Shown piece after piece: positions 1,448 through 63,109 of a DNA stretch of 64,000 nt (position 1 is the first letter of the stretch; every line of letters begins with the position of its first letter). The notes under the pieces were generated by a model. It saw only the letters and a list, made by a program, of their open reading frames with translations, searched no databases and was not told the DNA's origin. The DNA is taken from the NCBI GenBank assembly GCA_020073245.1, contig JAIQFQ010000001.1:418001-482000 (forward strand), written 5' to 3'. This DNA is from Terriglobia bacterium (GTDB lineage Bacteria > Acidobacteriota > Thermoanaerobaculia > Thermoanaerobaculales > Thermoanaerobaculaceae). The position numbers were made by a program, and so were the translations under genes.

Positions 1448-2524
1448 ATGCTCAAGGCGCTGCGGCTTGCGGTCCTTGCACTGGTCCTGGCTGCCGCCGG
1501 CTGGGAGACGGCCGTCGCCCCGCCCTCGCTACACTTCCCCCGCGACCACGGGGCTCACCCCGCGTTCCGCACCGAGTGGTGGTACATGACCGGCCAACTC
1601 GGCGACTCGGGAAGTCGCCGGTACGGCTTCCAACTCACCTTCTTTCGGCAGGGGCTCGACCCTTCGGCGCCCGAGCCCGGCCAGTCGGCGCTCCGCGCTC
1701 ACCAGGTGCTGGCGGCGCACCTTGCGATCGGTGAGCTTGGCAGCGGGCGGATGCACTTCGCCGAGCGCAGGCGCCGGATCGGGGGCGGGCTTGCCGGTGC
1801 AGCCGACGACGACCTCGATCTCTTCCTCGAAGACTGGACGATGCGGCGAACGCAGGAGGGGACGGTCGTCATCGCTGCATCGGACCGCGGGACCGCCACC
1901 GCCCTCCGCCTGGAACTCGCGCCGGCCAAGCCGCTGGTGCTCCACGGCGAGGGCGGGTTCTCGCCCAAGGGTCCGGCACCCGGGAACGCCTCCGTGTACG
2001 TCTCGTGGACTCGGCTGGACGCGCGCGGGGTCCTCGCTCTCGGCGGAAGCACCGCGCAGGTTCAGGGACAGGTGTGGTTCGACCACGAGTGGGGGACGAG
2101 CCAGCTCGGCCCTGACATTGCAGGATGGGACTGGTTCGGACTCCGCCTGGCGGACGGGCGCGAGTTGATGCTCTACCGCCTTCGCCGGGAGGACGGTAGT
2201 GCAGCGAGCGAGTCGGCGGGAACGCTTGTCGAGCGTGACGGATCGTCGCGCCACCTCAGTTCGGCCGATCTTGTCCTCGAGGCGAAGACGTGGTGGACGA
2301 GTCCGCGCACGGGCGCCCGCTACCCCGCGACGTTTCATGTCACGCTTCCTCTCGCGGGGCTCGATCTCGAGGTGCGTCCCCAAATACCCGACTCGGAGAT
2401 CGACGGGCGGGGTTCGACCGGAACGGTGTACTGGGAAGGTCCCGTCGGTGTCGCAGGCTCCTCAACTGGGGAGGGGTACGCGGAGTTGACCGGCTACGTC
2501 GCGTCGATGGCCGGGAGGTTCTGA
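1448..2524 (+). CDS. AttH/CrtC-like (lipocalin-like) secreted protein
   Basis: N-terminal signal-like segment; HFPRDHGAHPAFRTEWWYMTGQL and WFDHEWGTSQ motifs typical of the AttH/hydroxyneurosporene synthase family. Confidence 0.8.
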   Translation: MLKALRLAVLALVLAAAGWETAVAPPSLHFPRDHGAHPAFRTEWWYMTGQLGDSGSRRYGFQLTFFRQGLDPSAPEPGQSALRAHQVLAAHLAIGELGSGRMHFAERRRRIGGGLAGAADDDLDLFLEDWTMRRTQEGTVVIAASDRGTATALRLELAPAKPLVLHGEGGFSPKGPAPGNASVYVSWTRLDARGVLALGGSTAQVQGQVWFDHEWGTSQLGPDIAGWDWFGLRLADGRELMLYRLRREDGSAASESAGTLVERDGSSRHLSSADLVLEAKTWWTSPRTGARYPATFHVTLPLAGLDLEVRPQIPDSEIDGRGSTGTVYWEGPVGVAGSSTGEGYAELTGYVASMAGRF

Positions 2525-2538
2525 CCAGGCGAGAGACT

Positions 2539-2749
2539 GTGGTCAGTGGTCCGTGGTCCGGAACAACACGCCGGGAAGCAAAGATCGTTCGAAGGTTCAC
2601 AGGTTCGAATGTTCGAAAGTTCAAAGACGACGCGAAATCGGGAAAAGGGAAGAAGGTAGAGGGTAGGGAGTCGAAGGTAGAGGAAAGACAACGCGCGGGT
2701 TCCGTCGCCGGGCTTTCCTCTTCCGTCTTCCCTCTCCCAATTCTTCCCG
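2539..2749. repeat. Compound intergenic repeat region: GTGGTCN heptads (2539-2561), GTTCGAAN tandem words (2587-2626), polypurine arm (2640-2687) and inverted polypyrimidine arm (2713-2749)
   Basis: GTGGTCAGTGGTCCGTGGTCCGG; GTTCGAAGGTTCACAGGTTCGAATGTTCGAAAGTTCAAAG; GGGAAAAGGGAAGAAGGTAGAGGG...GAGGAAAG followed by CTTTCCTCTTCCGTCTTCCCTCTCCCAATTCTTCCCG. Confidence 0.6.
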
Positions 2750-2919
2750 TACCTGCTCGACCGAAGGCAGGGCGATGGCGGAAGGCGGGTAGCCGCGCCG
2801 CCGAGAGTGGGCCGGATGCTAGGCGCGCGAACTCGTCGCACCGGAGTGTAGCCGGAGGCTACATGAGGATGCAAACGGGCGAGCGCAACAACGCAGACGG
2901 TCCGCTATCGGCAGCGCGC

Positions 2920-3417
2920 CTACTCCACGACGACGAGCACTTGGCCGCCCTCGACCGTGGCCCCCGGGGTCACCATGATCCGCTCGACGCGTCCGGGGCC
3001 CTCTGCACAGATCTGGTTCTCCATCTTCATCGCCTCGAGGACCACGAGCGGCTGACCCGCCTTCACCTCATCCCCCTCGGTCACGCCAACGCTCACGACC
3101 CGCCCGGGGATCGGCGCGCGTACCTCGTGGGGTCCAGCGTGGGCGACGGTGCCGCTGGCCGCCCGTTCGAGCGGTCCCCGCAAGCGCACCTCGAACTGCA
3201 GTTGGGCGAGCGAGACGCGCCAGTGGTCGCGAGAGAGACGCTGACTTGCCACGGCGAAGTTGCGCCCGTCCGGCCAGAACAGGGCGTCGAGGCCAGTGTG
3301 GACCGGGAGCATCTCGACGATGTGCGGGGTGTCGTCCACTATGACCTCCCACGCCCCGTCGAGCCGCCTGGCCGAAACCTCGACCCTGCGCCCGTCGCGC
3401 TCGATCCACCACCTCAT
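2920..3417 (-). CDS. Biotinyl domain (BCCP) subunit of acyl-CoA carboxylase
   Basis: EAMKMENQI biotinylation motif; start MRWWIERDG; 166 codons including stop; same strand as the adjacent biotin carboxylase. Confidence 0.87.
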   Translation of the reverse strand: MRWWIERDGRRVEVSARRLDGAWEVIVDDTPHIVEMLPVHTGLDALFWPDGRNFAVASQRLSRDHWRVSLAQLQFEVRLRGPLERAASGTVAHAGPHEVRAPIPGRVVSVGVTEGDEVKAGQPLVVLEAMKMENQICAEGPGRVERIMVTPGATVEGGQVLVVVE

Positions 3418-3436
3418 CCCCACCCCCCACCCGCAC

Positions 3437-3594
3437 CGTGGATCGTGGTTCGTGGCTCGTGGATCGTTCCCCCGCCCGCCCGGTTGACATCTGAGAGTAG
3501 ACGTTCGACTGGCACGACACGCACGCCGGCGTGCCCGCTCAGTGTGGCGCCCTCCGTCGTATGAGCCACAAACCACGAACCACGGGCCACGTTC
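3437..3594. repeat. Paired inverted heptad-repeat element B: (CGTGGNN)n at 3437-3466 and (NNCCACG)n at 3563-3594
   Basis: CGTGGATCGTGGTTCGTGGCTCGTGGATCG versus GAGCCACAAACCACGAACCACGGGCCACGTTC; about 23/28 identity after reverse complement. Confidence 0.85.
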
Positions 3595-5113
3595 ATTTCG
3601 GTTCCCTGCCTTGCGCGAGGCGGCGCCCGGCCAAGCGCCATTCGCGCCCGTCGCGCTCCGCCGCTTCGAACCCATTCTGTGGAAGGTGCTCCGCCTCTTG
3701 GGCCGCCAGCACGGCTGCCGCAACGATCGCCGCGCGCTCGAGTTCGGGATCTACCGCGGCTTCGAGCGCCTGCACCGGCGCGCGCGCCAGCAGCTCGTCG
3801 AGCAGCCCCGTGTGGAGCGCACCGGCCTGGAACTCAGGGATGTCCAACAGGAGTCTGAAGAGCGGCAGGGTGGTGGCGATCCCGGAGATCCGGTACTCCG
3901 TCAGCGCCTGCCGAAGCCGCGCGAGCGCCCGCGGTCTGTCCTCACCCCAGATCACGAGCTTCGCGAGGATCGGGTCGTAGTCCAGCGGCACGAGCGAGCC
4001 CTCCCGGACTCCGCTATCCACACGCACGCCCGGCCCGTGCGGTCGTTCCAGCTGATGGATGACGCCGGGCGAGGGAGCAAACCCCCGGAGCGGATCCTCG
4101 GCGTAGATCCGGCACTCCACGGCGTGGCCGCGTGGCACCACGTCGGACTGATGCAGCGGCAGGGCTTCCCCGAACGCTTCGCGGATCATGAGCTGGGCGA
4201 GGTCCACGCCGTACACGACCTCGGTCACCGGGTGCTCGACCTGAAGGCGCGTGTTGACTTCGAGGAAGTAGAACTCGCCCGACTGCCCGAGAAGGAATTC
4301 CACCGTGCCCGCCGAGCGGTAGCCGGCCGCGGCGGCGACCGCGATCGCCGCCTCGCCCAGGCGGTGGCGCAGCGCCGGGTTGACCGCGACCGACGGGCAC
4401 TCCTCGAAGACCTTCTGGTGGCGGCGCTGGAGCGAGCACTCGCGCTCGCCGAAGTGGACGAGCGAGCCGTGGCGGTCGCCCAGGATCTGTACCTCGACGT
4501 GGCGTGGGCGCTCGATCAGCTTCTCCGCGTACACACGCTCATCGGCGAAGAACGCCTTGCCCTCCGAGGATGCGCGCGCGAACGCCTCCTCCAGCTCGCC
4601 CTCGGTGCGCACGATGCGCATCCCCTTGCCGCCCCCGCCGCCGACGGCCTTGAGGAGAATGGGGTAGCCGATCGCTGCGGCTGCGGCTCTGGCGGCGGCC
4701 GCATCCGCCAGTGGTTCGCTGCCCGGCACCACAGGCACGCCGACGCGGCGGGCCACCTCGCGCGCGGCAGTCTTCGAGCCCAACAACTCGATGACCTCGG
4801 GGGGCGGACCGATCCACACGAGGCCTGCGCTCTCGACCGCGCGGGCGAACCCCGCGTTCTCGGCCAGGAACCCGTACCCGGGGTGGATTGCGCCGGCGCC
4901 GCTCGCCCGCGCGGCCTGGAGTACCGCACCCTGGTCGAGGTAGGAGGCGCGCGCTGGAGCCGGGCCGATGCGCACCGCGAGGTCAGCCGCCAGGACATGT
5001 GGCTGAATGCGGTCCGCGTCCGAGTACACCGCGACGCTTCCATGCCCTAGCTCGTGGCACGCCCGGATCAGCCGCACCGCGATCTCCCCCCGGTTCGCGA
5101 TGAGGATCCTCAT
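3593..5113 (-). CDS. Biotin carboxylase subunit of acyl-CoA carboxylase (PccA/MccA/AccC type)
   Basis: MRILIANRGEIAVRLIRACHELG, KAVGGGGGKGMR, EVNTRLQVEHPVTE motifs. The track ORF extends upstream only through the repeat (HTIHDPRTTIHGVGGG). Confidence 0.95.
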   Translation of the reverse strand: MRILIANRGEIAVRLIRACHELGHGSVAVYSDADRIQPHVLAADLAVRIGPAPARASYLDQGAVLQAARASGAGAIHPGYGFLAENAGFARAVESAGLVWIGPPPEVIELLGSKTAAREVARRVGVPVVPGSEPLADAAAARAAAAAIGYPILLKAVGGGGGKGMRIVRTEGELEEAFARASSEGKAFFADERVYAEKLIERPRHVEVQILGDRHGSLVHFGERECSLQRRHQKVFEECPSVAVNPALRHRLGEAAIAVAAAAGYRSAGTVEFLLGQSGEFYFLEVNTRLQVEHPVTEVVYGVDLAQLMIREAFGEALPLHQSDVVPRGHAVECRIYAEDPLRGFAPSPGVIHQLERPHGPGVRVDSGVREGSLVPLDYDPILAKLVIWGEDRPRALARLRQALTEYRISGIATTLPLFRLLLDIPEFQAGALHTGLLDELLARAPVQALEAAVDPELERAAIVAAAVLAAQEAEHLPQNGFEAAERDGREWRLAGRRLAQGREPK

Positions 5114-5127
5114 CCCCCCACCCACCC

Positions 5128-5238
5128 CGTGGATCGTGGTTCGTGGGTCGTGGATCGTGTGTTCGCCACACAGAACCAGCCGCGGCCCAAGAAGAGATCG
5201 TCTTTCTCGACCCACGAACTACAAACCACGAACCACGG
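5128..5238. repeat. Paired inverted heptad-repeat element C: (CGTGGNN)n at 5128-5159 and (NNCCACG)n at 5208-5238
   Basis: CGTGGATCGTGGTTCGTGGGTCGTGGATCG versus CGACCCACGAACTACAAACCACGAACCACGG; about 25/30 identity after reverse complement. Confidence 0.85.
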
Positions 5239-5240
5239 TT

Positions 5241-6788
5241 TCATAGAGGGATGTTTCCGTGCTTCTTCGCGGGCATCCAGTCGCGCTTGTTGGCGGCAAG
5301 CTGGAGCGCGGCGATCACACGCCGACGCGTCGTTCGCGGCGCGATCACGGCGTCGATGAACCCACGCTCCGCGGCCACCAGCGGGTTCGCGAACTTCTCG
5401 ACGTACTCGCGCACCAGCTCGGAGCGCCGCGCCTCAGGGTCGGGCGCGCTGTCGATCTCCCTCTTGTAGAGGATGTTGACGGCGCCCTGCGGCCCCATCA
5501 CCGCGATCTCCGCCGATGGGAAAGCGAAGTTGAAGTCGGTTCGGATGTGCTTCGATCCCATCACGCAGTAGGCGCCGCCGTACGCCTTGCGGGTGATGAC
5601 CGTGACCTTCGGGACGGTCGCCTCCGCGAGTGCGAAGAGCAGCTTGGCGCCCTGCCGGATGATCCCACCGTGCTCCTGCTCGACGCCCGGCAGGAACCCC
5701 GGCACGTCCTCCACGATGAGGAGGGGGACGTTGAAGGCATCACAGAAGCGCACGAAGCGCGCCCCCTTGACGGAGGCGTTGATGTCGAGCACACCGGCGA
5801 GGTGCGCCGGTTGGTTGGCCACAACCCCGACCGGCCGCCCGGCGAGACGGACGAAGCCCACAACGATGTTGCGCGCGAAGTGGGCGTGGACCTCGAAGAA
5901 CTCCCCTTCGTCCGCCAGCGAGCGGAGGAGCTCCTTGATGTCGTAGGGCTTGTTGGGGTCCTCCGGCACCAGCGCGTCGAGCGCACCGTCCTCGCGGTCG
6001 GGGGAATCCTGGGTGGGGCGCACCGGCGGGTCCGCTGCGTTGTTGGAGGGGATGAACCCCACCAGGCGGCGAATGCTCCCGAGCGTGTCGACGTCGTCCT
6101 CGCATGCGAAGTGGGCCACGCCCGAGATCTGGCTGTGGGTCGAAGCCCCGCCGAGCCGTTCCATCGTCACGTCCTCGTGCGTCACCGTGCGGATCACTTC
6201 GGGACCGGTCACGAACATGTAGCTCGTGTTCTTCGCCATGAACACGAAGTCGGTGATTGCGGGCGAATAGACCGCCCCACCCGCACACGGACCGAGGATC
6301 GCCGAGATCTGCGGCACCACGCCGGACGCGATGGTGTTGCGCAGGAAGATGTCGGCGTACCCGGCGAGAGAGACGACGCCTTCCTGGATGCGAGCTCCGC
6401 CCGAGTCGTTGAGGCCTATGATCGGGACCCCGAACTTGAGTGCGAGGTCCATGATCTTGCAGACCTTCTCGGCGTGCGCCTCCGAGAGCGAACCGCCGAA
6501 CACGGTGAAGTCCTGGGCGAAGACCGCGACCTGCCGTCCGTCGATACGCCCGAATCCGGTGACCACGCCGTCGCCGGGAATGCGTTGGCGCTGCATCCCG
6601 AAGTCGTGGCTGCGGTGGGCGACGAGCCGGTCCACCTCGTCAAAGCCGCCGGGGTCCAGCAGGAGGTCGAGACGTTCGCGGGCGGTGAGCTTGCCCGCAG
6701 CGTGCTGCTTGGAGATGCGCTCCTTGCCGCCCCCGTCCAGGCTCGCCGACTCCAAATCCTGCAGACGCTTGCGGACGTTGTCGCTCAC
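5241..6788 (-). CDS. Acyl-CoA carboxylase carboxyltransferase subunit (PccB/MccB type)
   Basis: Carboxyltransferase motifs ([71 protein letters not shown]); GTG start at 6788 more plausible than the longer ORF. Confidence 0.95.
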
Positions 6789-6807
6789 GTCACCCCCCCG
6801 AACGTTG

Positions 6808-6822
6808 TCCGGCCGTGCCGGA
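6808..6822. promoter_or_regulatory. Palindrome in the divergent pccB-like / tldD-like intergenic region
   Basis: TCCGGC-CGT-GCCGGA perfect 6-bp arms. Confidence 0.35.
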
Positions 6823-6850
6823 AAGCGGTCTATGCTATCACGACGGTGCC

Positions 6851-8059
6851 ATGGAACGGGACCAGCCGACAGGCCTCGCAGAGCTCGCAACGGCGGTGAC
6901 GCGCGCCCGAATCCCGGGGCTCGAGGACCTCTACGTCGAGCGCCGGGCCGAATCGCTGTGGCGTCTGGCCGCCGGCCGCGTCGCCGCGCGCGAAACCTCA
7001 TTGCACGAGGGGGCGGCTGTGCGTCGTGCCGGCGTGTTGATATCCGGCGATGGACTCGATCGCTCGGTGCTGGCGAGCCTCCTGGGGATTGCCAGCCGAA
7101 CCCTGCCCGCGTTCTCGGTGCCGCGCTTCCCGGAGCCGCCCTCGCTCGAGCATGCCCTGGGTGAGTTGCCAACCGATTGGGTCGGCGTGCGGTGGCGGTG
7201 GACCTGGGCCGCCGTGCTCACGGGTCGAAGGGCAGTCACGGTGGCCCGCCCGCAGCTGGCGGAAGCGACCCTGGCCGACGGGCAGCGTGCCCTCTTCTGC
7301 TGGCCCCCGGTCACCGCCACACTGCCCGGGTCGGCTGATGTCCAATCTGTCGCCGCTGTGCGAGCCGGCAAGGTCCGCGTGCTGCTTGCTCCGGCCGCCG
7401 CGATTGTGCTGCTCCACGAGCTCGTAGGCCACCCGCTCGAGGCCGACCTCCTGCTCGAGGGCGCGTCGCCGTGGAGCCGGCGCATCGGCGAGCGCATCGT
7501 TCGGCTGCCGCTCTCCGTCACGGATGACCCCACGCGGTTCGACCTCCCGGGTGGCTTCAGCGCGGATGACGAGGGCACTGCGGCGGCCCCGCGCGCGTTG
7601 CTCGCCGAAGGCGTGTTGGCCGGGGCGCTGGCCGACCGGCGGACCGCTGGGGCCCTGGGCGTCGATCCGGGGAACGCCCGACGAGCCGGGGTGCACTCAC
7701 CTCCGAGGCCGCGGATTTCTAACCTGGTCGTGACCGCCGGTAATCTCCTGCTGGAGCCTCCGCGCGCCGACGCGTCGATCGAGGTGCTGGCGCTTGCGTC
7801 CGGGACCCTGGAGCGCGCATCCGGCATGGTTCTGCTGCGTGTGCGGAGAGCGTTCGCCCTCCGCCGTGGGGCGCGCCGGCAGGCCCTCGCGCCGTTCACG
7901 CTGGCCGGAACGGTGGAGACCGTCACAAACGGTCTGTTGGCGGTCGCGGAGCCGTCGACTCGCACCTCCGAGCCGGGGTGGTGTGCCAAGGACGGCGAAG
8001 TGGTCCCGACAGGCGGCTTCGCACCGTGGCTGCTCCTCGACGGATTGGAGGTGCGGTGA
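6851..8059 (+). CDS. TldD-like metalloprotease family protein
   Basis: [18 protein letters not shown] (HExxxH motif of TldD) and TldD/PmbA-like C-terminal half. Confidence 0.82.
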
Positions 8060-61150: not shown

Positions 61151-63109
61151 ATGCGAGCTCGTTGGTTGATGCTGGCAGGAGTCGCGGTGGGCCTCGTCGT
61201 TCCGAACGTGATGGCGGACCCGCCGGCGCGGGTCGGAAGGCTCAATCTGATCAACGGTGCGGTGTCGTTCCGGCCAGCGGGTGTTGACGACTGGGCCCCG
61301 GCTGAGCCCAACCGGATCGTCACCACCGGGGATGGACTCTGGATCGACGACAACTCTCGGGCGGAGGTGCACGTCGGATCTACAGCGGTCCGTTTCGGGC
61401 CACAGACCGCATTCGACTTCGAGAACGTCGACGACCAGACGCTGCAGGGGAGGCTTGCGCAGGGCAGGGTCAGCGTCCGGATCCGCCTCGTCGATGAAGG
61501 CCAGGCCTACGAGATCGACACGCCGAACGGCGCGCTCTCGCTCACCCGTACGGGTGACTACCGCATTGAGGTCGGCCGCGACGGCAACCAGTCGAGGTTG
61601 ACGGTGTGGTCGGGAGGCGCCGAGGTGATGTCGGCCGGGTCGTCCTTCCAGGTTCGCGAGCACCAGGTGGCGACCATCACCGGCGCGGATTCGCCGACCT
61701 TCGACCTCGAGGACGTTGGACCACGCGACGACTGGGACCACTGGTGCGCCGGGCGCGACCGCCGCGAAGACAACTCTCAGTCCCTGCGGTACGTCTCCCG
61801 AGAGATGCCGGGCTACGAGGACCTGGACGACGCCGGGCACTGGATCGCGGACGCGGAGTTCGGGAACGTGTGGGTTCCTGACCGTGTCGCGCCGGACTGG
61901 GCGCCGTATCACATGGGACACTGGGTCTGGAGGGATCCGTGGGGGTGGTCGTGGATCGACTATGCCCCATGGGGGTTCGCACCGTTCCACTACGGTCGGT
62001 GGGCCTACGTCAGGTCGCGCTGGGCTTGGAGTCCCTTCGCGATCGGCGTCGCCATCGTCGCGCGCCCTATCTTCGCGCCGGCGTTGGTAGCGTTCATCGG
62101 CGGAGCGAGGTGGAACATAGGCATAATCGGCGGGGCGGTGGCCTGGGTGCCGCTTGGGCCGGGAGAGGTGTACCGTCCGGCGTACGCGGTCAGCAACACG
62201 TACATCCGGAACGTGAACATCACCAACGTCACGAACGTCACCAACATCACGAACGTTACGAACGTGACCAACACGACGGTCATCAACAACTACCGCAACA
62301 TCAACGTGCACAACGCTGTGATGGCCGTGCCGGTAACGGCGATGGCCGGCGGTCAAAACCTCGCCCGTGTGGCTGTGCCCGTCACGAGGCAGCAGCTCAT
62401 GGCGGCACCTGCACCCGCCTTCGCACCCCATATCGCGCCGACCAGGGAAGCCGTGATCGGTGTCGGGCTGCACGGCAGCGCGTCTGGTCAGATCGTCGCG
62501 CCGCCTCCGAGGCTGCTGAACCGACAAGTCGTCGCGAAGATCGCACCGCCACCAAAGCCTATCCCGTTCGCGGCCCAACAGCAGGTCCTGGCTGCGAACA
62601 ACGGAACGCCTCTCGAGCTGCAGCAGCAGGCGCAGCTCCGCCAAACGACGCAAAGCCTACAATCCACCGGCGCGGGCCAGTTTAGACCGGCCACCATCGG
62701 CACCGGTCTCAAGCCAGTGCGGGCCAACCTCGCGCCTGCGATAAAGGTGGCGCCGGTGTCGGGCGGTGGTTTCGTGCAGTTCGAGTCGCACGGCACCACC
62801 GACACGATGCAGACCACCGGCGCCGGCCAGACCACCTCGGGCGCCGGGACGGGGGGTCACACCACGTACCACGGCACCACCGGGACGACGCAAACCACGG
62901 GCGCCGGCCAGACCACCTCGGGCGCCGGGACGGGCGGCCACACGATCTCCCGCGGCGCCACCGGCACGACGCAGACCACGGGCGCCGGCCAGACCACCTC
63001 GGGCGCCGGGACGGGGGGTCACACCACCTACCACGGCACCACCGGCACGACGCAGACCACAGGTACGGCAAAGGCGCCACCGACACCTAAGCCAACGCCG
63101 AAGCACTAG
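61151..63109 (+). CDS. FecR-domain / DUF6600-like secreted protein with Asn/Thr ladder and Gly/Thr tandem repeats
   Basis: Signal peptide; FecR-like N-terminus; GHWIADAEFGNVWVPDRVAPDWAPYHMGHWVWRDPWGWSWIDYAPWGFAPFHYGRWAYV core. Confidence 0.87.
   Translation: MRARWLMLAGVAVGLVVPNVMADPPARVGRLNLINGAVSFRPAGVDDWAPAEPNRIVTTGDGLWIDDNSRAEVHVGSTAVRFGPQTAFDFENVDDQTLQGRLAQGRVSVRIRLVDEGQAYEIDTPNGALSLTRTGDYRIEVGRDGNQSRLTVWSGGAEVMSAGSSFQVREHQVATITGADSPTFDLEDVGPRDDWDHWCAGRDRREDNSQSLRYVSREMPGYEDLDDAGHWIADAEFGNVWVPDRVAPDWAPYHMGHWVWRDPWGWSWIDYAPWGFAPFHYGRWAYVRSRWAWSPFAIGVAIVARPIFAPALVAFIGGARWNIGIIGGAVAWVPLGPGEVYRPAYAVSNTYIRNVNITNVTNVTNITNVTNVTNTTVINNYRNINVHNAVMAVPVTAMAGGQNLARVAVPVTRQQLMAAPAPAFAPHIAPTREAVIGVGLHGSASGQIVAPPPRLLNRQVVAKIAPPPKPIPFAAQQQVLAANNGTPLELQQQAQLRQTTQSLQSTGAGQFRPATIGTGLKPVRANLAPAIKVAPVSGGGFVQFESHGTTDTMQTTGAGQTTSGAGTGGHTTYHGTTGTTQTTGAGQTTSGAGTGGHTISRGATGTTQTTGAGQTTSGAGTGGHTTYHGTTGTTQTTGTAKAPPTPKPTPKH
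62210..62280 (+). repeat. 9-nt-period repeats encoding (N-[VI]-T) ladder
   Basis: RNVNITNVTNVTNITNVTNVTNTT; AACGTNACN-type codon triplets. Confidence 0.85.
62792..63065 (+). repeat. 81-bp in-frame tandem repeat, about 3.4 copies
   Basis: Units begin at 62792, 62873, 62954, 63035; encode GTTGTTQTTGAGQTTSGAGTGGHTTYH (27 aa). Confidence 0.92.

Follow-up and report, generated by a model that had tools for sequence, protein, structure and literature searches.

A hairpin-forming insert between two genes of a bacterial carboxylase operon carries the arms of a genome-wide family of heptad arrays

Dispersed intergenic inverted repeats that lie near gene 3' ends, form hairpins in mRNA and expand in lineage-specific bursts are represented in bacteria by REP/BIME and by MITE-type elements (Correia/NEMIS and similar). 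The STRR heptanucleotide repeats of Calothrix and Nostoc are intergenic and tandem, with several heptamers per genome, as in the family described here; we know of no description of them as kind-matched convergent pairs at conserved junctions.

Cyanobacterial STRR repeats are also mentioned in a study of the heptameric repeats GGGAATC, or (GGGANTN)n, of Xanthomonas and GGGGA(T/C)T of Nostoc (Wurmthaler et al. 2015, PMC4692102). The Xanthomonas repeats, of one G-rich kind per species, were interpreted as G-quadruplexes (PMC4692102). These tandem, degenerate heptads lie between genes, a short way past the end of the upstream gene; position 6 and four other bases of the unit are conserved, arrays usually have four units, and each genome holds 70-75 inverted pairs in convergent orientation, with a location that is conserved while the sequence varies between species (PMC4692102). 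The TAACTGA direct repeats of Beggiatoaceae, Cyanobacteria and Bacteroidetes are likewise intergenic heptamer arrays, present in many copies per genome beside genes without a common function (MacGregor 2015, PMC4679880). Across 7006 surveyed prokaryotic genomes, heptamers were the most abundant intergenic tandem repeat, with no clue to function (PMC6344855). A literature search on 7-bp repeats in Acidobacteria returned nothing.

The present family fits among these intergenic heptamer repeats and is closest to those of Xanthomonas, sharing their tandem degenerate heptads, position close after the upstream gene, predominance of four units, convergent pairs, and conserved location with variable sequence. 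Unlike them, it has several kinds of unit per genome, some of them not G-rich, as well as octads, concerted swaps of kind, gain at empty sites, a loop-side AAAGAC motif and a G-rich start-side tract. It resembles REP/BIME and MITE-type elements in consisting of inverted repeats dispersed between genes, close to gene 3' ends, and in its bursts; it differs in that its arms consist of repeated heptads, each copy has its own spacer, several kinds occur side by side and no link to a transposase was found. The TAACTGA repeats differ from it in that they are of a single invariant kind and precede start codons in direct orientation, a single indirect repeat excepted (PMC4679880).

The window, a stretch of 64,000 nucleotides from an uncultured Terriglobia bacterium (Acidobacteriota) with a 4.38 Mb genome, contains a three-gene carboxylase operon on the minus strand, in the order carboxyltransferase, biotin carboxylase, biotinyl subunit. 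Gene calls were made with a simple dicodon predictor, which recovered the three operon genes exactly. Both intercistronic gaps hold an element (C in the first, gap C; B in the second, gap B, 3418-3592) whose arms are convergent arrays of the 7-base unit GTGGNTC, about four units each. The features, in window coordinates and order of transcription, are as follows.

5241 to 6788, minus strand: carboxyltransferase gene, first in the operon, GTG start (Pfam PF01039, 7.3e-196)
5208 to 5238, minus strand: element C stop-side arm, GTGGTTC GTGGTTT GTAGTTC GTGGGTC
5200 to 5205, minus strand: AAAGAC motif on the loop side of the C stop-side arm, of the type enriched (as AAGAC) 3' of arrays
5158 to 5207, minus strand: element C spacer (loop), not alignable with the G009 spacer at the same place (498/1000 shuffles as good)
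5128 to 5157, plus strand: element C left (start-side) arm, GTGGATC GTGGTTC GTGGGTC GTGGATC
5114 to 5127, minus strand: G-rich tract from element C to the biotin carboxylase ATG
3593 to 5113, minus strand: biotin carboxylase gene (Pfam PF00289/PF02786/PF02785), stop TCA at 3593-3595
3563 to 3591, minus strand: element B stop-side arm (5' arm on the mRNA), GTGGCCC GTGGTTC GTGGTTT GTGGCTC, starting 1 nt past the stop codon
3467 to 3562, minus strand: element B spacer, single copy in the genome, with no match in eight congeners at the search sensitivity
3471 to 3508, minus strand: relic within the B spacer, a decayed ACAG-type array plus GGGCGGGCGGG tract, with an intact counterpart in gap B of G009
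3437 to 3466, plus strand: element B left arm (start-side, 3' arm on the mRNA), GTGGATC GTGGTTC GTGGCTC GTGGATC = CGTGGATCGTGGTTCGTGGCTCGTGGATCG
3418 to 3436, minus strand: Shine-Dalgarno-like G-rich tract from the B start-side arm to the biotinyl-subunit ATG, of the type enriched (as GGGNGGG) at array-bearing starts
2920 to 3417, minus strand: biotinyl (BCCP-like) subunit gene, Biotin_lipoyl (Pfam PF00364, 9.5e-18)

A sequence-only reading of this DNA had described element B as a second copy built on the plan of element C, and its anatomy holds. The left arms differ at one of 30 positions (29/30 identical), the right arm of B ends 1 nt from the biotin carboxylase stop codon, and on the mRNA the left arm of B is followed by a G-rich start context (GGGTGGGGGGTGGGG-ATG). 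The two spacers are unrelated, as stated, although that of B does hold the decayed ACAG array and GGGCGGGCGGG. Both elements fold as RNA better than shuffled sequences (element C z -3.4, element B z -2.65), and element B has only a weak version of the loop-side AAAGAC motif. As an insert able to form a hairpin between two operon genes, element B is real.

The same reading had proposed, as one alternative, that gene conversion among copies keeps the arms alike, and the 29/30 identity of the B and C left arms is in its favor. However, other left arms of the same kind, unlinked to these, already match B and C at 24-28/30, slightly lower, so the B-C identity is no sign of a special relationship. 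The right arms of B and C diverge more than the left ones, and in G009 gaps B and C bear different arm sets. Furthermore, an arm's own partner ranks in pairing at a mean percentile of 0.47 among arms of its kind; since own partners pair no better than others, arm-to-arm conversion or copying does not account for the match. Gene conversion is therefore largely refuted and can hardly be credited.

Stable hairpins in two successive gaps of a carboxylase operon could also be read as a regulatory RNA, attenuator or terminator specific to that operon. Against this, the same elements adjoin many unrelated genes, their loops are not conserved, and some relatives have no element at the carboxylase operon. 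No intrinsic terminator (GC-rich stem plus T-run) or promoter was found in 2400-6900, and Rfam 15 gave no match above the gathering score there, the sub-threshold matches being to miRNA families and located elsewhere in the region. Operon-specific regulation is thus highly improbable. A phage origin was also considered and set aside, there being no phage match.

Array statistics were obtained from sampled stretches of the source genome (G000, 464 kb) and of the congener G009 (360 kb), with smaller samples from nine other genomes. A scan that made no assumption about kind, requiring a 5-nt core repeated three times, was applied to the two large samples. Period-7 arrays were intergenic in 16/18 cases in the source genome and 39/48 in G009, and period-8 arrays in 4/4 and 11/14, while arrays of periods 5, 6, 9, 10, 12 and 13 were essentially never intergenic; the few period-14 matches are presumably period-7 arrays counted twice over. 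The heptad kinds in these two genomes are GTGGNTC/GTGGTCC, GACAGTT, GAGAGTT, GTCAAAC, GGGTAGA and GGGGTCC, and the octad kinds are GTTCGAAG and GAGGAGCN. The pattern GTGGNNCGTGGNNCGTGG occurs 68 times in the source genome, compared with none for the reversed pattern. Unit number is narrow, with 3-5 units in 90/94 arrays (four in 40, five in 31) and no long tail.

Among classifiable pairs of arrays sharing one gap, 31/36 are convergent and of a single kind, some of the 31 sharing an arm within one gap, and 5 are mixed. Nested pairs exist, with octads outside heptads (G009 C42 9166-9387). Arrays occur in 18% of convergent, 12% of co-directional and 2% of divergent gaps in the source genome, and in 36%, 25% and 8% in G009. 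They lie mostly near gene 3' ends, many starting a few nucleotides past a stop codon. Where a co-directional gap holds both orientations, the order is a purine-rich arm on the stop side, then a pyrimidine-rich arm, by 14 to 0; solitary arms occur in 25/39 co-directional array-bearing gaps. In many GTGG pairs (loci L012, L018 and L002, elements B and C) one arm has the subtype GTGGATC and the other GTGGTTC, which places a mismatch at a constant unit position in the stem, possibly a way of avoiding a perfect palindrome.

The gap next to the operon (2524-2760) is a composite of three array kinds of the same family.

2539 to 2559, plus strand: lone GTGGTCA/GTGGTCC array, lying beyond the stop codon of a plus-strand gene (1448-2524)
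2587 to 2626, plus strand: octad array of GTTCGAAG, then AAAGACGACG
2641 to 2747, plus strand: GGGTAGA/GGGAAGA heptad pair with convergent arms at about 2641-2685 and 2714-2747, from sequence and TRF

AAAGAC follows two of these three arrays, and the syntenic gap of G009 has other kinds. Abutting the 3' end of the biotinyl-subunit gene, at 2770-2919, is a dispersed repeat of about 150 bp (...GTAGCCGCGCCGCCGAGAGTGGGCC...GGTCCGCTATCGGCAGCGC) outside the heptad family, with four more copies (70-79%) in the 464 kb of the source genome and five in G009.

Orthologous gaps were compared among relatives; one congener, G007, is identical to Acidobacteria bacterium 37-71-11 across the compared operon region, which places the source genome in Acidobacteriota. 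In gap C of five species the same plan stands between the same stop codon and a G-rich start context, built from four types of heptad: GTGGNTC (the source genome and G007), GACAGTT (G009), GACAGCT (G012) and GGGGTCC (G008). Both arms changed kind together between species, and kind does not track relatedness, G007 and G008 having different gap C heptads at 90% nucleotide identity. The pairing energies of own arms in gap C sum to -272.8 kcal/mol, and only 2/120 permutations are as good, namely the observed one and the one exchanging arms between the two GTGG species, which would pair better with arms exchanged. In most syntenic array-bearing gaps of the source genome and G009 the kind has likewise changed. 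Low-complexity drift without conserved boundaries, named beforehand as the result that would tell against the elements, is contradicted by these orthologous gaps.

Empty sites, which the sequence-only reading had advised seeking in relatives, were found at gap C of G006, which is short and without arms, and at the purM-purN junction of seven genomes. The latter is compact in all four outgroup genera examined and in three congeners (G001, G002, G004, G005, G006, G008, G012) and filled in four congeners by cassettes of about 130 nt; being empty in outgroups, these junctions show that the cassettes were gained. Within the genus, single genomes contain 0-330 exact matches to the GTGG pattern, 0-152 to ACAGT, 0-154 to AGAGT and 0-119 to GAGGRGC; another genus has 264 AGAGT matches, with 3 in its congener. 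Samples of some members of the taxonomic family contained no arrays. Where one orthologous cassette could be compared in G010 and G011, the arms are more conserved (61/64 identical) than the loop (31/46) and the genes (flanking DNA about 86%).

Gain in formerly compact junctions bears on the possibility that the arrays arose in place by slippage of simple repeats, with palindromic pairing produced by template switching. Heptamers are indeed over-represented among simple repeats in bacteria (PMC4692102, PMC6344855), and the arrays are tandem and degenerate. Nevertheless, the same few kinds occur at hundreds of unrelated sites, unit number is narrow rather than long-tailed, own partners are no more complementary than other arms of the kind, and whole cassettes stand where junctions were compact. 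The slippage account is already disfavored and considered very unlikely.

Of the earlier suggestion of a mobile or copied cassette, the copying and gain are upheld by the empty sites in relatives, by boundaries conserved while arms were exchanged and by species-specific bursts. Spacers had no match elsewhere in the genome or in congeners, except where a spacer contains another array, and since they are not common to the copies, a simple copied cassette is unsupported. The same applies to a classical MITE, that is, a non-autonomous element with terminal inverted repeats that is moved whole by a transposase whose gene lies at another locus, such as the Y1/RAYT enzymes that mobilise REP sequences. 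The elements do have terminal inverted repeats, insertion at sites empty in relatives and lineage bursts, and Y1_Tnp genes are present in 14/17 family genomes and in none of the three genomes of g6, two of which had no arrays in their samples. On the other hand, recent MITE copies have interiors in common and no interior is shared here, several unrelated arm kinds coexist in a single genome, and the source genome's own Y1 is a 159-aa fragment only. Mobilisation by RAYT/Y1 was rejected, the Y1 genes not being flanked by arrays: a family array lies within 1.5 kb of 1/20 Y1 loci, the other 19 having none at that distance. Examination of these Y1 transposase genes yielded no dispersal enzyme, and no target duplication was identified at purM-purN, where filled and empty junctions are too diverged to read. 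A classical MITE is accordingly judged unlikely.

A fixed number of units, dispersal and occurrence in both orientations are compatible with arrays acting as DNA-binding sites, for instance for a protein of nucleoid or partition type that recognises four heptads, in which case the hairpin potential would be incidental. This is quite improbable, as divergent (promoter) gaps are avoided and both arms switch together; one protein could not read the arrays, because kinds differ completely at orthologous sites. Neither can a quadruplex be the shared principle, since GACAGTT and GAGAGTT arms occupy the same places as GTGG arms. Quadruplex-capable G-tracts are absent from these arms, GTGG being without a run of three G and GACAGTT and GAGAGTT without any G-tract.

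Gap B of G009 indicates how element B may have been built. On the stop side it has a GTGG arm of the same kind and in the same place as that of element B, and on the start side two ACAG-type arrays with a G-rich tract after each of them. The relic in the B spacer aligns with the start-proximal ACAG array and GGGCGGGCGGG of this gap at a local score of 45 (dinucleotide shuffles mean 20.9; 1/1000 as good). The GTGG start-side arm of element B sits between the ACAG relic and the ATG, suggesting that an arm can be added on its own, to match one already present; here a GTGG arm would have been placed opposite an existing GTGG arm, next to a decaying ACAG arm. In two other genomes gap B contains larger tandem modules, in G010 (L069) a module of a GGACCAC array plus GTCTCTCGTCC in five copies and in G005 (L070) a module of array plus G-rich tract in three. 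These modules suggest that arm and tract can duplicate as one unit.

Two accessory motifs appear to be new: AAAGAC/AGAGAC on the loop side, and a Shine-Dalgarno-like tract, rich in G, next to many start-side arms. AAGAC was observed 21 times within 22 nt of arrays on the 3' (loop) side, compared with 1.6 expected, and 4 times on the non-loop side, compared with 1.0 expected. GGGNGGG lies just upstream of the start codon in 8/23 genes with a start-side array versus 29/569 without (p = 2.7e-5). At purM-purN a GGGAGGGTGGGTGG-like tract is present in the four filled junctions and in none of the empty ones.

The anatomy of the elements, their gain in compact junctions, the arms matched in kind, the concerted swap of kind and the lineage-specific bursts are facts of the genomes compared. 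Their best explanation, which we hold to be fairly probable, is that they are inserted, kind-matched intercistronic mRNA hairpin cassettes under arm-level selection, element B being one dispersed copy. According to this proposal, small hairpin cassettes would insert into intercistronic gaps and into intergenic space at 3' ends. When complete, a cassette would comprise about four degenerate heptads or octads as its stop-side arm, often with AAAGAC/AGAGAC next, a unique spacer, and a convergent start-side arm of matching kind, often followed by a G-rich tract that could provide the next gene with a ribosome-binding site. A few kinds would be amplified in each lineage, and at a given junction an old cassette would give way to a newer one, frequently of a different kind.

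Position and polarity, together with the matching and the conservation of the arms, lead us to infer a function as an mRNA hairpin: the arms would pair as an intercistronic stem-loop, and this pairing would keep them matched. By analogy with other intercistronic hairpins, the structure probably protects the 3' end of the upstream message and uncouples translation of the next gene, for which the G-rich tract probably restores ribosome binding. Several observations stand against the hairpin cassette. Arm pairing is not maximised and shows systematic mismatches, no dispersal enzyme was found, solitary arms are common, the G-rich tract is found at a minority of starts, and spacers differ per copy, which is unusual for copying as a unit.

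A bolder reading, offered tentatively and with more doubt than conviction, is a class of element whose heritable identity is the arm heptad kind and not an end-to-end copied sequence. Kind-matched convergent pairs would be added to gene junctions around non-homologous spacers, take each other's place from species to species and bring in a new ribosome-binding tract. If true, such a class would be a general source of heptamer periodicity in bacterial intergenic DNA. The family may help explain the abundance of 7-base repeats between bacterial genes. The hairpin swaps at orthologous junctions amount to a natural experiment in which position, unit number and arm matching persist; what is retained is the heptad plan and the pairing, not the letters, and this counts against the G-quadruplex, single-protein-site and slippage accounts. 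The purM-purN junction, with and without a cassette, is a ready test site.

A few further repeats and homologues were recorded. A second biotin carboxylase homologue in the source genome (L091, G000:C20:1853-3181) has an in-frame TAG and is either a pseudogene or an assembly error. In the window, an 81-bp tandem repeat of 3.4 copies, threonine/glycine-rich and probably coding, lies at 62789-63060, and a 9-base repeat at 62212-62277. In G033, from another family of the class, the plan recurs: convergent four-unit pairs with short spacers (L231, L232) are built from quite different heptads, such as GATGGCA, GGCAGAA, GAATTGT and GAGTGCT.
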